A stretch of 64,000 nt of DNA, taken from contig CP076546.1 of the NCBI GenBank assembly GCA_018889975.1, positions 2,852,001 through 2,916,000 of the forward strand, in the 5' to 3' direction. This document shows positions 469-27,461 of this stretch, one piece after another. Made by a program: the position numbers and the translations under genes. The stretch is from Bacillus sp. NP157 (GTDB taxonomy: Bacteria; Pseudomonadota; Gammaproteobacteria; Xanthomonadales; Rhodanobacteraceae). Positions within the stretch are counted from its first letter, which is position 1. Each line of letters opens with the position of its first letter. The notes below the pieces were generated by a model. The model searched no databases. It saw only the letters and a program-made list of their open reading frames with translations, and was not told the origin of the DNA.

Positions 469-1116
469 TTACGCCTTCGGTGCCTTCGGTGCCTTGGCAG
501 CCTTCGGTGCCTTCACGGCCTTGGGGGCCTTGGCAGCCTTGGTTGCGCGAACAACCTTCGCAGCGGCGACCTTCTTCGAGGCGGCCTTGCGCGGAGCAGC
601 CTTGCGGGCAGTCTTCTTGGCAGCGACCTTCTTCGCCGGTGCCTTACGGACAGCCTTCTTCACCGCCTTCTTCGCGGCAACCTTACGGGCCGGCGACTTA
701 CGGGCGGTCTTCTTTACCGCAGCCTTGCGGGCGGTCTTCTTCGCCGCGACCTTACGGGCCGGCGACTTGCGTGCAGTCTTCTTGGCCGGCGCCTTGCGGG
801 CGGCGGTCTTCTTCACGGTGGACTTCTTGGTCGCCTTTTTGGCGGCCGACTTCTTGGCAGTGGCTTTCTTGGCAGTGGCCATGGTTCGTCTCAGCTCCTC
901 ATCAGTTGGCAGTGGTTGCCCAGTAAAAGCATGCAGGAACGCTTCAACCAGCAAATCGCTGTTCGTCGCGTGCCTTAAATTGTTCACCTGTCGGCGGGTG
1001 CGTTCATCGGAAAGCAGGCGGAGCACATGCAGCGGAATCGATACCGTGATCTTGCGTACCGCTCCCGCTTTTGAACCGTGCTCCACATACGGCCGGATGA
1101 ATTTCTCAGTTTCCAT
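469..1116 (-). CDS. MetJ-like ribbon-helix-helix domain fused to a histone H1-like Lys/Ala tail
   Basis: This is a 215-residue protein in two parts. Residues 1-78 closely match the methionine repressor MetJ. They carry the DNA-contacting beta strand KITVSIP (MetJ Lys23 and Thr25 equivalents are present) and the helix A/B core [17 protein letters not shown] followed by [13 protein letters not shown]. From residue 79 the sequence is a repetitive Lys/Ala/Arg/Pro tail with AAKK, TARK and KSPARK units, like bacterial H1 homologues (HctB/AlgP type), ending in KAPK repeats. The C-terminal helix of MetJ is absent, replaced by the tail. The ATG at 1116 was chosen because it gives the same N-terminal length as MetJ; a TTG nine codons upstream is also open. 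A promoter with a perfect TTGACA lies just upstream. Role by inference: a sequence-guided nucleoid protein or a modified methionine repressor. Whether the SAM site is functional cannot be seen. Confidence 0.85.
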
Positions 1117-1143: not shown

Positions 1144-1172
1144 AAGCTATTCCTGAACAAATCCGCTGTCAA
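1144..1172 (-). promoter_or_regulatory. Putative sigma-70 promoter of the MetJ-H1 gene
   Basis: On the minus strand TTGACA (1172-1167) is followed after exactly 17 nt by TAGCTT (1149-1144), placing the transcript start about 20 nt before the ATG at 1116. The -35 is perfect and the -10 is weak (3 of 6). The surrounding 1140-1200 stretch is unusually AT-rich for this genome, which fits a promoter. Confidence 0.55.
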
Positions 1173-1548: not shown

Positions 1549-1953
1549 TCAGTGATCTTCGTTTTCGATCAGTTCGGCGTAGTCATCCGGACCGAGCAGG
1601 TCGTCGACTTCGCTCCGGTTGGTGTACTTGATCTTGAAGATCCAGCCATCGCCGTAGGCATCGGCATTGATCGTTTCCGGCGCGTCGGAGAGTTTCTCGT
1701 TCACCTCGACGACTTCGCCCGAGACCGGCGAATAGATGTCGGACGCGGCCTTCACCGATTCCACCACGGCGACGCCCTTGCCCTCGCCCGCTTCCACGTC
1801 GCTACCCACTTCCGGCAGCTCGACGTAGACCAGGTCGCCCAGCGCTTCCTGTGCGTGCTGGGAAATGCCGACGGTGGCGGTGCCGTCGTCGTTGATGCGC
1901 ACCCACTCGTGGGACTTCAGGAAATACAGATCGCCGGGGATTTCGCTGCTCAT
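1549..1953 (-). CDS. gcvH: Glycine cleavage system H protein
   Basis: This 134-residue lipoyl carrier protein shuttles the aminomethyl intermediate between the P, T and L proteins of the cytoplasmic glycine cleavage complex. The lipoyl-attachment lysine is in ESVKAASD (Lys68), within the usual biotinyl/lipoyl fold. The N-terminus [17 protein letters not shown] is typical and length matches the family. The ATG at 1953 was chosen by this match; an upstream in-frame extension to 2031 is not conserved-looking. A GAGG lies about 10 nt before the start. The gene follows gcvT in the same direction after 105 bp and ends at a strong terminator, so the two are probably one operon. The P-protein gene is not in the window. 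Confidence 0.96.
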
Positions 1954-2058: not shown

Positions 2059-3165
2059 TCAGCCGGCGATGCCTTCCATCGGCTTGCCGTCGCGGACGAA
2101 CGGGAACCTGACCACGCGGACGGGGATCTCGCGGCCGCGGATGTCCACGCGGACCTCGCCCGGCTCGCCGGCCGGGATGCGCGCGAACGCGATGGACTTG
2201 CCCAGGGTCGGGGCGAAACCACCGGAAAGGATTTCGCCCTCGCCATTCGCCGTCAGCACCTTCTGGCCATGGCGGAGCACGCCCTTGTCGTCCATCACCA
2301 GGCCGACCATGACGCGCTTCACGCCATCGGCCTTGTGCTGCTCCAGCGCGGCACGGCCGATGAAGTCGCGGCCCTCGTCGAGCGAGATCGTCCAGGCCAG
2401 CGCGGCTTCCCACGGCGACACGGTTTCGTCCATGTCCTGGCCGTAGAGATTCATGCCCGCTTCCAGGCGAAGGGTGTCGCGTGCACCCAGGCCGGCCGGT
2501 GCGACGCCGGCGTCCTTGAGGTGGTTCCAGAGTTCCACGACGCGGCTATTCGGCACGACGACTTCGAAGCCGTCTTCGCCGGTGTAACCCGTGCGCGCCA
2601 GGAACAGCGGCATGCCACCCGGGCCTTCGGTTTCGATCGCGGCGAACTTGCCGAGCTTGCGCGCCTTTTCCTGCGCGTCGGCGGGGAGCAGGCCGATCAG
2701 CTTCTCGCGTGCGTTCGGACCCTGCACGGCGATCATGCCGAATTCCGGCCGCTCGCGGACGCTGACGCCGAAGGCCGCCGCCTGCTTGCCGATCCAGGCC
2801 AGGTCCTTTTCGCGAGTGGCTGCGTTCACGACCAGGCGGAAGAAATCCTCGCGCAGGAAGTAGACGATCAGGTCGTCGATCACGCCGCCGTTCTCGTCGA
2901 GCATGCAGGTGTAGAGCGCCTTGCCGGGCTTGGCCAGCTTGTCCACGTTGTTGGCGACCAGCTTGCGCAGGAAGTCGCGGGTGGACGGGCCGGTCAGGTC
3001 GACGACGGTCATGTGCGAGACGTCGAACATCCCGGCGTCCTTGCGCACGGCGTGGTGCTCTTCGATCTGCGAGCCGTAGGCGATGGGCATGTCCCAGCCG
3101 CCGAAGTCGACCATGCGGGCACCGAGTTCGCGGTGGGTGGCGTTGAGTTCGGTCTTGTCGGTCAT
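2059..3165 (-). CDS. gcvT: Glycine cleavage system aminomethyltransferase (T protein)
   Basis: This 368-residue, tetrahydrofolate-dependent enzyme releases ammonia from the H-protein-bound aminomethyl group and forms 5,10-methylene-THF. Family landmarks are present: [20 protein letters not shown] at the N-terminus, the GMFDVSHM segment, the [12 protein letters not shown] motif in the middle, and a C-terminal beta-barrel domain with LRHGQKVL and [11 protein letters not shown]. The ATG at 3165 has a good AGAAGG ribosome site and gives the usual length; an in-frame upstream extension to 3384 overlaps the divergent gene and looks non-coding. It is transcribed divergently from the Mla-type operon. 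I looked for a glycine riboswitch in the 126-bp gap and found none. Confidence 0.97.
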
Positions 3166-3291: not shown

Positions 3292-4434
3292 ATGTCCGCC
3301 CCCTCCCTGCCCGGCTCGGTCACCCTCACCCGCGACGCAGGCGGCGCGCGCCTCGTCCTGCGCGGCGACTGGACGCTGTCCCACTACACGGTGCTACAGC
3401 AACGGGCCAACGAACTGGCCGGGTCGATCGGCGCGGATGTCGGCGTGGACGTCCACGACGTGGCCACCATGGATACCTCGGGCGCCTTCGTCATCGCCGA
3501 ACTACTGGGCAGCTCGCGCACCCAGGCCCTTGCCCAGGATGAATCCCTGCCGGCCGCCCGGCGCGCCCTGCTGAAGACTGTCGGCGACGCCATCGACACC
3601 TACTGCAAGGGTGTCCGGCGCAAGCGCGATGCGGGCTTCGTGGTGATGCTCGAACGGATCGGCGCAGCCATGGCGTCGACCTGGAAGCAGACGCTGAAGT
3701 TGCTCGGCTTCATTGGCATCACCCTGCAGGGCTTCGCCCGGACCGCCTGGCGCCCGTCGCGCTGGCGCGTCACCTCGCTGGTGTCGCACCTGGAACAGAC
3801 CGGGCTGGATGCGGTGCCGATCCTCGCGTTGCTGTCGTTCATGGTCGGCGCGGTGGTCGCCTTCCTCGGTTCCACGGCTCTGGCCGCCTACGGCGCCAGC
3901 GTGTTCACCGTCGACCTGATCGGCTTCGCCTTCCTGCGCGAGTTCGGCGTCTTGCTCACAGCGATCCTGCTCGCGGGCCGCACGGCCAGCGCCTTCACCG
4001 CGCAGATCGGTTCGATGAAGGCGCGCGAAGAAATCGACGCGATCCGCACGCTCGGCCTGGATCCGGTGGAGCTGCTGGTCCTGCCGCGCGTGCTCGCCCT
4101 GCTGATCGCCCTTCCCTTGCTCACCTTCGTCGCCATGATCGCCGGCATCGTCGGCGGTGGCGCGGTGTGCCTGGCGGTGCTGAAGATGTCCCCGTCGATG
4201 TTCCTGTCGATGTTTCAAGACGACATGTCGCTGCGCCAGTTCCTGGTCGGCATCGCCAAGGCGCCGGTGTTCGCCTTCATGATTTCGGTGATCGGCTGCA
4301 TGGAGGGTTTCAAGGTGTCCGGCAGCGCGCAGTCGGTCGGCGAGCACACCACCTCGGCGGTGGTGCAGTCGATCTTCATCGTGATCCTGCTCGATGCCAC
4401 CGCCGCCCTCTTCTATATGGAGATGGGCTGGTGA
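3292..4434 (+). CDS. MlaE-type lipid ABC transporter permease with N-terminal STAS domain
   Basis: This 380-residue protein is the permease of an MCE lipid transport system that moves phospholipid-like substrates between inner and outer membrane. Residues 1-95 form a STAS-like domain ([11 protein letters not shown], then [12 protein letters not shown]), here fused to the permease; in the E. coli Mla system the STAS protein MlaB is separate. Residues about 120-380 are the MlaE domain with five or so hydrophobic helices and the family-typical [17 protein letters not shown] and [17 protein letters not shown] segments, where the conserved Glu and Arg coupling residues are present. The stop overlaps the GTG of the ATPase gene by four bases, so translation is coupled. 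It is the first gene of a four-gene operon. Confidence 0.93.
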
Positions 4435-26180: not shown

Positions 26181-27461
26181 ATGAGCCATCCCGCAATCCA
26201 GCCCTCGAACCACCGAAGCGCGTTCCCCGCGTTCGTGCTGCTATTCCTGGTGATGGCCTACAAGGCGAACGATGCCTTGACCATCCCCCAGTTCTTTGCG
26301 GAAGACGTCTCGATCTTCTTCAAGGGCCAGCTGGGTCACGTCTTGCCCCAGGTTTGGGTGCCATACGCGGGATATCTTCACTTCATCCCACGCGTCGTCG
26401 CCTGGATAGGCTCATGGTTTGGATCGGCCAAGGCACCGCTGGTCTATAACCTGGCCGCCGTTGCGCTGTCCGCGGGCGCCATCTCGTACACCTGCCACCG
26501 GTTTCGGGATATCGTGCCGCTCCCGCTGGCGATGCTTACCTTCATCGCCGTCCCTGTCAGTGGCGAAATCCTGGGCACGATTACGAATGCCCAATGGTTT
26601 TTACAGTTCGTGATCGCCGCTGCATGCCTCACCGAACCCAGCACCGCGGCAAGCGGACGGAGACGATGGCTGCGAGACGCTTGTCTCCTGGCCATCGCGC
26701 TTACGGGCCCATTCTCGATCATGCTCGTCATCCTGTTGGGCGGCATCGCGCTGGCCTCCCTGGTCGATCGGCGAGCCGGGTGGTCCATGTTCGGTGGGCA
26801 GCTCGCCAACTGGACGGCACGGGTGGACCGACGCGCTGTGGCGGCCGTGGCCGTGGGTGCCGTTGTCCAGGTTGGCTTCGTGCTCGGGCACGCGCCTGAG
26901 AAATCAGAAGCGCAGAGAGGTGTTCTCGAGCTTCTGCGGATCACCCTGACCGATCTCGCCCCGATCCACACGTTTGGCAAGGATTTCCTCACCGGCAACG
27001 GCTGGCTGGTGGTCTACGCGATCGGCGTGGTGGCCCTCGTGCGCGGGGGACGCATGGAGGGAAGGAAGCGGCTGGCGGTACTTGCGATGCTCGCCTTCGC
27101 GTGTGCGGAGATGTTCGCGCCTGTCCGACTCAAAGAGGTCGAGCCGCTGTATCAGTTCCTGCTATCCGATCGATATTTCTACGTATTCAAGGTCGTATTC
27201 TGGTGGGCCGTTTATGCCGCCATAGTGACCCAGGGCAGCCTCTCGCGTGCGGACGCGGCGCGCATCGTTACCTTGTTCGTCGCACTCGTCGCTGCGGGAA
27301 ATATCGACCATCTTCGTCGACCGCCTTTCGCGGACCTGCATTGGAAGCAGACTGCCCGCGAGCTCCGGTCACCAGGGCCGCATACCGTGTTCACCAATCC
27401 TCCGGGCTGGGGAGTCATCATCGACGGACCGCCGGCCGATCCCTCCAAGACCCAGCCCTGA
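26181..27461 (+). CDS. Polytopic membrane protein, unknown family
   Basis: This 426-residue protein has about eight to ten hydrophobic segments. An early loop holds IPQFFAEDVSIFFKGQLGH and another YAGYLHFIPRVVAWIGSW; the acidic pair in the first loop and the Tyr-rich loops resemble uncharacterised O-antigen or teichoic-type glycosyltransferase membrane proteins. The C-terminus is a short periplasmic or cytoplasmic tail with HTVFTNPPGWGVIIDGPPAD. No confident family assignment. The ATG at 26181 follows the GtrA stop by 22 nt. A/T content looks higher than in the flanking housekeeping genes, which would fit transfer, but I did not compute it. Confidence 0.7.
   Translation: MSHPAIQPSNHRSAFPAFVLLFLVMAYKANDALTIPQFFAEDVSIFFKGQLGHVLPQVWVPYAGYLHFIPRVVAWIGSWFGSAKAPLVYNLAAVALSAGAISYTCHRFRDIVPLPLAMLTFIAVPVSGEILGTITNAQWFLQFVIAAACLTEPSTAASGRRRWLRDACLLAIALTGPFSIMLVILLGGIALASLVDRRAGWSMFGGQLANWTARVDRRAVAAVAVGAVVQVGFVLGHAPEKSEAQRGVLELLRITLTDLAPIHTFGKDFLTGNGWLVVYAIGVVALVRGGRMEGRKRLAVLAMLAFACAEMFAPVRLKEVEPLYQFLLSDRYFYVFKVVFWWAVYAAIVTQGSLSRADAARIVTLFVALVAAGNIDHLRRPPFADLHWKQTARELRSPGPHTVFTNPPGWGVIIDGPPADPSKTQP

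Follow-up and report, generated by a model that had tools for sequence, protein, structure and literature searches.

A MetJ repressor with a histone H1-like tail across the Rhodanobacteraceae, and a candidate internal start codon at the junction

Introduction

Within a 64,000-nucleotide stretch of DNA (the window, i.e., the whole stretch that was analysed), a single open reading frame joins a MetJ-like repressor domain to a long basic tail, which raises the question of whether this union is a genuine gene and, if so, which protein or proteins it encodes. A sequence-only reading of the locus had described the frame as a MetJ domain carrying a histone H1-like tail, and had offered two interpretations, i.e., a methionine/SAM-responsive nucleoid protein, or a chromatin protein that has borrowed MetJ as a docking domain. 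Both interpretations were followed up computationally across relatives of the source genome. Family label f1 denotes the Rhodanobacteraceae and f2–f12 denote other families of the same order, and gene names outside the profiled families were assigned by eye.

Results

A MetJ core continued by an H1-like tail

The features of the locus that are discussed below are as follows (with their basis in brackets):

469..1116, minus strand: metJ::H1 fusion gene, 215 aa (open frame, profile and PDB matches)
883..1116, minus strand: MetJ core, residues 1-78, ribbon-helix-helix repressor domain (Pfam, NCBIfam and PDB matches, contact residues)
469..882, minus strand: H1-like tail, residues 79-215, and proposed nested reading frame from Met79 (composition, weak HC2/H1 profile matches, position orthologous to standalone H1-like genes)
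886..927, minus strand: nucleotide-constrained element, codons 64-77 of the core (synonymous heterozygosity 0.096 vs. 0.479)
895..899, minus strand: AGGAG, Shine-Dalgarno-like, 12 nt 5′ of the junction ATG (pairing energy of about –8.5 kcal/mol at 79/79 junctions)
880..882, minus strand: junction ATG (Met79), proposed internal start codon (79/80 loci; lost in genome G236)
1144..1172, minus strand: promoter-like TTGACA-N17-TAGCTT of the fusion gene (sequence; aligned upstream regions of relatives; similar promoter at standalone H1 genes)
1549..1953, minus strand, as the fusion gene: gcvH, conserved upstream neighbour (sequence comparison of loci)
2059..3165, minus strand, as the fusion gene: gcvT, conserved upstream neighbour, start set by eye

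The fusion frame runs on the minus strand from its ATG at 1116-1114 to its stop codon at 471-469. Residues 5-88 of the encoded protein match the Pfam MetJ family (PF01340) with an E-value of 1.4e-37 and 128.1 bits (cut-off 25), the NCBIfam MetJ equivalog (NF003622) is passed with 133.6 bits (cut-off 110), and the top PDB chain is 1cma (E 5.5e-33, residues 5-77). These scores bear out the sequence-only assignment of residues 1-78 to MetJ, including its helix A/B core and the Lys and Thr of the KIT strand (K23 and T25 in E. coli). The similarity to MetJ stops at residue 77-88, and the C-terminal part with helix C that E. coli MetJ possesses is replaced, as had been read from the letters, by a Lys/Ala/Arg tail of 137 residues starting at Met79. 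The C-terminal part is also short in the MetJ proteins inspected from families f8, f9, and f12. The proposed likeness of the tail to HctB and H1 agrees with its composition, although the profile scores stay under the curated cut-offs, with 26.4 bits for Pfam HC2 (PF07382) on residues 79-155 (cut-off 40) and 24 bits for the Burkholderia H1-like family NF038053 on the fusion protein (cut-off 80).

An AlphaFold model of the fusion protein, computed from 21 sequences, was of too low a confidence to be used (mean pLDDT of 51.3, pTM of 0.18). A profile search of the source genome itself (a single-contig 4.88-Mb Luteibacter genome) revealed no second MetJ, in answer to the earlier question of whether a separate metJ accompanies the fusion. 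Between gcvH and the fusion gene, a weak match to the anti-hemB RNA family was seen on the minus strand (1462-1545; 19.8 bits vs. a gathering threshold of 49.5), and is probably due to chance.

The fusion is conserved throughout the family

The comparison across relatives that had been suggested for this architecture showed it to be family-wide. A family profile search found a MetJ match in 227 of 233 Rhodanobacteraceae genomes, and in 190 of the 192 genomes of good quality. In a sample of 299 genomes from the order, MetJ was present in 96 (76 from f1, 13 from f9, six from f12, and one from f8). All 76 f1 frames measured 137-399 aa, and the 20 frames from other families measured 80-106 aa, except for one f9 frame of 143 aa that is lengthened at its start only. 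Among the non-f1 MetJ frames inspected, none carried a basic tail, nor did any H1-like frame follow the stops inspected. A class-wide search yielded MetJ in five of 369 genomes, three of which lie outside the order and have frames of 112-118 aa.

Seven of the family matches listed had frames shorter than 120 aa, and all seven reach contig ends (three verified on fetched DNA and four judged from coordinates); a complete tail-less frame was found nowhere among the Rhodanobacteraceae matches listed. A frameshift or assembly error at the junction near position 882, which had been named as a possible source of the union, was ruled out by the presence of the fusion frame in 76/76 sampled f1 matches and of MetJ in nearly all family genomes (the 227 of 233 mentioned above).

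For comparisons at the level of single loci, a set of 80 loci was used that consists of the locus in the window and the 79 readable frames from the best 80 of 481 matches in named relatives. The named relatives represented in this best 80 include Luteibacter, Dyella, Frateuria, Rhodanobacter, Oleiagrimonas, Tahibacter, Dokdonella, and Mizugakiibacter. Locus L038, from a Luteibacter MAG, was excluded for a nonsense codon in the core; around 4000-4320 it displays a stop within the MetJ core and an intact tail and junction ATG, reflecting either a true lesion or an assembly error. In every named locus with at least 2 kb of upstream DNA, gcvH was located upstream on the same strand. With the exception of L038, every complete frame seen runs unbroken across the junction, so the fusion itself is also under selection.

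Closed tails (n=73) ranged from 35 to 309 residues in length, with a median of 99, and consisted of 36.6% Lys and 34.6% Ala; their net charge per residue lay between +0.28 and +0.50, and only 3/73 contained acidic residues. While such a wide range of lengths might be expected of a neutral, slippage-prone extension without function, this view is very hard to reconcile with the constancy of the composition and with the lack of a complete tail-less family frame among the matches listed, and we consider it extremely improbable.

Met boxes and the methionine regulon

A tandem met box matching at least 13 of 16 positions was found before metX in 27/27 f1 genomes, the source genome and six Luteibacter among them, vs. 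0/3 MetJ-less relatives, in which the best upstream match was 8-9/16. In the source genome, three boxes lie upstream of metX-metB-hom (the metX upstream region is locus L208, 1224-1400; the other metX loci are in L195-L224). As judged by eye, the last box ends one base 5′ of a TTGAC-type –35 in 25 of the 27 metX loci, and since the box thus abuts the –35, binding of MetJ-H1 should block the promoter. Moreover, a SAM-I riboswitch (RF00162) was detected in the metX leader of all ten loci scanned, three of which are MetJ-less. Expression of metX-metB therefore looks to be under double SAM control, by riboswitch RNA and, as we infer, by MetJ-H1.

Upstream of the fusion gene itself (260 bases searched), a tandem box of at least 12/16 was present in 56 of 74 named non-Luteibacter loci, at positions –147 to –187, vs. 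5 of 1354 control windows; locus L098 was dropped from this count for too little upstream DNA. An earlier upstream count, which contained second copies of some genomes and from which other short loci had likewise been dropped, amounted to 66/87 vs. 11/1601, with 0-3/87 for other palindromes of like make-up. No met boxes were found upstream of the Luteibacter fusion genes, where the best matches were 8-10/16 (nine loci from seven genomes). The boxes of the fusion gene are located ca. 100 nt 5′ of the –35. Simple blocking is unlikely at these boxes, and contacts by the tail or the use of another promoter are possible. An operator role for a divergent gene was excluded, as the upstream gcvH and gcvT share the direction of the fusion gene.

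Genome-wide, a strict 16-base tandem pattern occurs in three copies in the source genome, is present in 22 of 23 Luteibacter genomes, and reaches up to 33 copies in f1 among 33 further genomes. This strict pattern was found zero times in five MetJ-less genomes (G001, G002, G003, G013, and G019), and zero times as well in the f1 genomes G012, G236, and G244 and in the MetJ-bearing f9/f12 genomes G050, G036, and G011. In context, strict sites were situated before metX-metB, an aspartokinase/homoserine dehydrogenase gene, and a cysB-like gene (named by eye), and several strict boxes sit within or near unrelated genes. The other best sites in the source genome (L236, 3000-3032; L175, 3000-3016) are found upstream of TonB-dependent-receptor-like genes, which are possible members of the Luteibacter regulon.

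Three further observations concern single places. The f1 genome G261 has 33 strict tandem boxes vs. one for the reversed pattern, far above its relatives. The window contains exact single met boxes at 26303, 28540, and 32161 (3 vs. 0.76 expected, with 5/100 shuffles reaching 3). Finally, in locus L129, which has a tail-less f9 MetJ, AGACGTCT lies in the region between the metJ stop and a flavodoxin-like (cysJ-like) frame which, as read by eye, may be a target of MetJ.

Conservation of the SAM and DNA contacts

Simulations reported in the consulted part of PMC2775130 point to Glu39 and Arg42 as the main contacts to the SAM adenosyl group, to a salt bridge between Arg43 and Glu59, and to Arg40 and Thr37 at the DNA interface (residues are cited in E. 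coli numbering, with core positions 38 and 41 corresponding to E. coli 39 and 42). Comparison of the SAM pocket, another point raised by the sequence-only reading, showed that the protein encoded in the window keeps Glu39, Arg42, Arg43, Glu59, and Arg40, and has Ser instead of Thr at position 37.

Across the 80 loci, the core helices and contact residues are strongly conserved. Among the DNA contacts, K23 is kept in 79/80 loci and T25 and R40 in 80/80; R43 and E59 are invariant (80/80), E39 and R42 are found in 52/80 and 53/80, respectively, and position 37 is occupied by Ser (76), Ala (3), or Val (1). Both SAM contacts, Glu39 and Arg42, are missing in 27/80 loci (mainly Rhodanobacter and some Dyella), which display Leu39 together with His, Tyr, or Glu at position 42. 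In these Leu39 cores SAM sensing may be altered while the met boxes persist.

In Rhodanobacter R12, according to the part of PMC12146267 that was consulted, a putative MetJ is up while four methionine enzymes are down, a pattern that fits a repressor role. Since the fusion protein is the sole MetJ, keeps the core contacts, and is accompanied by met boxes at metX in all 27 f1 genomes vs. none of the three MetJ-less relatives, it is most likely the working methionine repressor of the Rhodanobacteraceae.

The second interpretation of the sequence-only reading, i.e., a chromatin protein that uses MetJ as a borrowed dock and for which methionine control is secondary, might appeal to tails of up to 309 residues that far exceed the core, and to the few strict tandem boxes left in Luteibacter (the three in the source genome). 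It is difficult to square, however, with a sole MetJ, with metX boxes in every one of the 27 genomes including six Luteibacter, and with the strong conservation of the helices and contact residues of the core. Genomes across the family have a regular met regulon, so that this option is not favoured, and we deem it very unlikely. As to the first interpretation, the link with methionine and SAM is supported by the sole MetJ, its contact residues, and the metX-metB-hom boxes, whereas compaction and SAM dependence are presumptive parts of it.

A constrained element with a Shine-Dalgarno-like sequence precedes Met79

Over the 80 loci, mean synonymous heterozygosity amounted to 0.479 in 46 core columns vs. 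0.096 in the 13 columns before the last Arg, and no other 13-column window of the core fell under 0.39. The element concerned comprises codons 64-77 (TTT ACT GGG CAA CCA CTG CCA ACT GAT GAG GAG CTG AGA CGA), within which GAG GAG at the junction is fixed in 80/80 loci. The frozen codons are often rare in the window (ACT 3%, AGA 1%, CCA 10%, and GCT 5%), GAG GAG being ordinary. Because the named relatives had been retrieved by DNA patterns, the freeze was re-tested on 41 loci from genomes retrieved by protein profile (some of the same species), in which GAG GAG was found in 41/41, AGA in 39/39, and GGG in 40/41. The same stretch varies in the tail-less metJ of f8, f9, f12, E. coli, Aeromonas, Proteus, and a Pseudomonas plasmid.

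The junction ATG is present in 79/80 loci, though the residue preceding it varies or is absent (the remaining locus, L107, ends at a contig edge 5′ of the junction Met and was scored as without it). Predicted pairing with the 16S tail averaged –8.5 kcal/mol at the junction ATG and –4.6 kcal/mol at the metJ ATG, with controls yielding –3.8 kcal/mol (63 gcvH starts) and –1.7 kcal/mol (790 random core codons). The spacing between the Shine-Dalgarno and the ATG is 12 nt in most loci, which is above the ideal, and 9 nt where one codon is missing. In addition, the mRNA is predicted to be least structured at the junction (ca. –4 kcal/mol per 40 nt vs. –6 to –14 over most flanks).

A conserved ATG and ribosome-binding site within the frame, as for genes with an in-frame internal start, are thus present, except in G236. 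In this f1 genome the fusion is kept, and the ATG, the Shine-Dalgarno (–2.2 kcal/mol), and the codon freeze have been lost together, making G236 a natural control for the junction element.

A lax Rfam search of 1201 bases returned no family at the junction, and its three weak matches fall elsewhere or within the tail. A hairpin masking the Shine-Dalgarno (GCUUUU with AGGAGC) is predicted in several sequences, but its arms change in some lineages, so that we do not put it forward. Inspection by eye also led us to drop hammerhead-like, kink-turn-like, and frameshift interpretations of the junction.

The same element leads standalone H1-like genes in sister families

A junction model using sequence only matched the MetJ-less genomes G002 (E 1.6e-6) and, weakly, G003 (E 0.07), in both cases directly 5′ of the ATG of a standalone H1-like gene, which in G002 follows gcvT-gcvH. 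In a search of 28 genomes, gcvH was found in 27, and a standalone H1-like gene was located 3′ of it in 3/3 f2 and 3/3 f3 genomes; no H1-like gene came next after gcvH in the other families of this search, both f4 genomes included.

Over 250 genomes of the order, the junction model matched 83, of which 52 belong to f1. Its matches were confined to the metJ-coding part in 11 f9, six f12, and one f8 genomes, and reached the ATG outside f1 in nine f2, three f3, and one f6 genomes; the strict filters passed over three f2 genomes in which the standalone H1 gene is known to be present. Each f2/f6 match that was retrieved (10/10; nine by script and one read) lies ahead of a standalone H1-like frame, and MetJ-less f2, f3, f4, and f6 genomes all provide examples of such genes sharing the leader and the ATG. 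A promoter of the type TTGACA-N17-TAGNTT lies 248-321 nt 5′ of the standalone ATG (seven loci), and in f2 and f3 the leader finishes with ACTGGGC...GAGGAG or GAGGAA...ATG.

The leaders of 5/5 loci from genus g57 (f2) can be translated as PTDEELT, continuing in frame to the H1 Met; one of them reads TGQSEPTDEELT, resembling the MetJ end. Because the junction model matches up to the H1 ATG and the g57 leaders read PTDEELT in frame, the leader of the standalone H1 gene is best seen as a putative remnant of metJ.

The opposite course of events would have the standalone H1 gene and its leader as the ancestral state, with metJ inserted before H1 in the Rhodanobacteraceae only, vs. decay of metJ elsewhere. 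In line with such an insertion, the profile match to metJ in the sister leaders covers the last ~60 nt only, in f3, with no metJ trace detectable further upstream in the f2–f4 leaders tested, and the tail-less MetJ families of the order have no H1 gene beside metJ or gcvH. Nevertheless, the leader resembles a metJ 3′ end that is common, as protein, to the tail-less MetJ families, and in all five g57 loci it reads in frame into the H1 Met as described above, so that we regard insertion as rather unlikely, albeit a serious contender, and prefer decay of metJ.

These standalone genes also bear on the possibility that MetJ-H1 is the only product of the fusion gene, with the frozen junction serving another end, e.g., as a pause during which MetJ folds ahead of the tail, as a signal for mRNA stability, or as the target of a small RNA. 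The rarity of many of the frozen codons (ACT, AGA, CCA, and GCT) and the retention of the junction frame in all complete frames among the matches listed would suit a single product. However, the ordinary GAG GAG codons are frozen as well, the same nucleotides lead standalone H1 ATGs partly out of frame, and G236, which lacks the ATG and the Shine-Dalgarno, also lacks the freeze. We consequently find a single product unlikely.

Discussion

Most likely, the mRNA of this locus yields two proteins, MetJ-H1 and free H1. Translation from the first ATG would produce MetJ-H1, and translation from Met79 would produce free H1, as in the sister families, with the ribosome-binding region of H1 lying within the last ~14 codons of the metJ core. 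The MetJ core would bind the tandem met boxes, with SAM as the presumed corepressor, and so block the metX-metB(-hom) promoter. The flexible and strongly positive H1-like tail would most likely add non-specific DNA contacts around the operator, this extra hold on the DNA being expected because of its charge. As a whole, the reading of the locus as the family's methionine repressor with an H1-like tail, plus a nested free H1 from the same mRNA, is in our judgement probably correct.

Read at the level of sequence, the locus comprises a conserved fusion, a met-box regulon, a constrained element with a strong Shine-Dalgarno, and the sharing of element and ATG with standalone H1 genes; the making of both proteins, the function of the tail (including compaction), and the dependence on SAM are what we infer. 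Retention of the frame speaks for the importance of the fusion, not for that of free H1. Furthermore, the source genome carries at least one other standalone H1-like gene, so that a free H1 could be redundant. Beyond what the sequence-only reading had proposed, the fusion is family-wide, its junction ATG has a counterpart in the ATG at which a standalone H1-like gene of the sister families begins, and the core is constrained at the nucleotide level over its last ~14 codons.

More tentatively, the nested gene might link SAM sensing to nucleoid structure, with MetJ-H1 sitting on met boxes when SAM is abundant, its tails and free H1 from the shared mRNA coating or bridging the DNA around methionine promoters, and the untranslated H1 leader of the sister families being the fossil of a lost repressor, preserved in its final codons; this broader picture is speculative and somewhat doubtful.

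The locus represents a family-wide union of a textbook repressor with a histone-like tail, in which the coding sequence of one protein apparently also is the ribosome-binding region of another. As the attached domain has a known DNA target, the locus offers a clean test of H1-like tail function. If the leader of the standalone genes is truly a metJ remnant, it would exemplify a coding end that outlives the rest of its gene as a leader. The fusion also extends what has been mapped of methionine regulation: in the part consulted, Leyn 2014 lists four Xanthomonadales genomes without MetJ (PMC4239095). For Xanthomonas campestris, three HC2-type proteins are listed in the consulted part of PMC8578834. 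Within the portion of the open-licence literature consulted on MetJ with histone H1-like, lysine-rich/nucleoid-associated terms, or with Rhodanobacter, Luteibacter, Dyella, or Frateuria, no description of a MetJ-H1 fusion was found, in agreement with the earlier impression that it had not been described.

Comparison with known systems

The protein shares with known MetJ (PF01340, NF003622, and 1cma) a core of ~75% identity, the Lys and Thr of the DNA-contacting strand, the main SAM contacts, and tandem met boxes at methionine genes. It differs from E. coli MetJ in that the helix C part is replaced by the H1-like tail, position 37 is Ser, and the 3′ end of the core apparently also is a ribosome-binding region. 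With HC2/HctB (PF07382), the Burkholderia H1-like family (NF038053), and AlgP, the tail has in common a repetitive, Lys/Ala-rich composition almost devoid of acidic residues, and weak profile matches. Unlike these, it scores under the curated cut-offs, is joined to a sequence-specific repressor, and corresponds to a separate gene in sister families.

The same architecture is found elsewhere in the source genome, where H1-like tails occur on glucose-6-phosphate dehydrogenase-like, topoisomerase I-like, and Ku-like proteins (L114, L115, and L117; by eye). Mycobacterial HupB and the phasin PhaF likewise combine a folded domain with a basic tail of the H1 type. In contrast to the protein described here, none of these dehydrogenase-, topoisomerase-, and Ku-like proteins, HupB, or PhaF is a ligand-responsive specific repressor.

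Finally, the use of one frame for two products from two starts, as proposed here, has counterparts in SpaO (PMC13059759) and AerR (PMC6199135), as described in the consulted parts of these papers. Compared with what those parts describe, the proposed short product of the present locus is distinguished by having a standalone gene as its counterpart in sister families.
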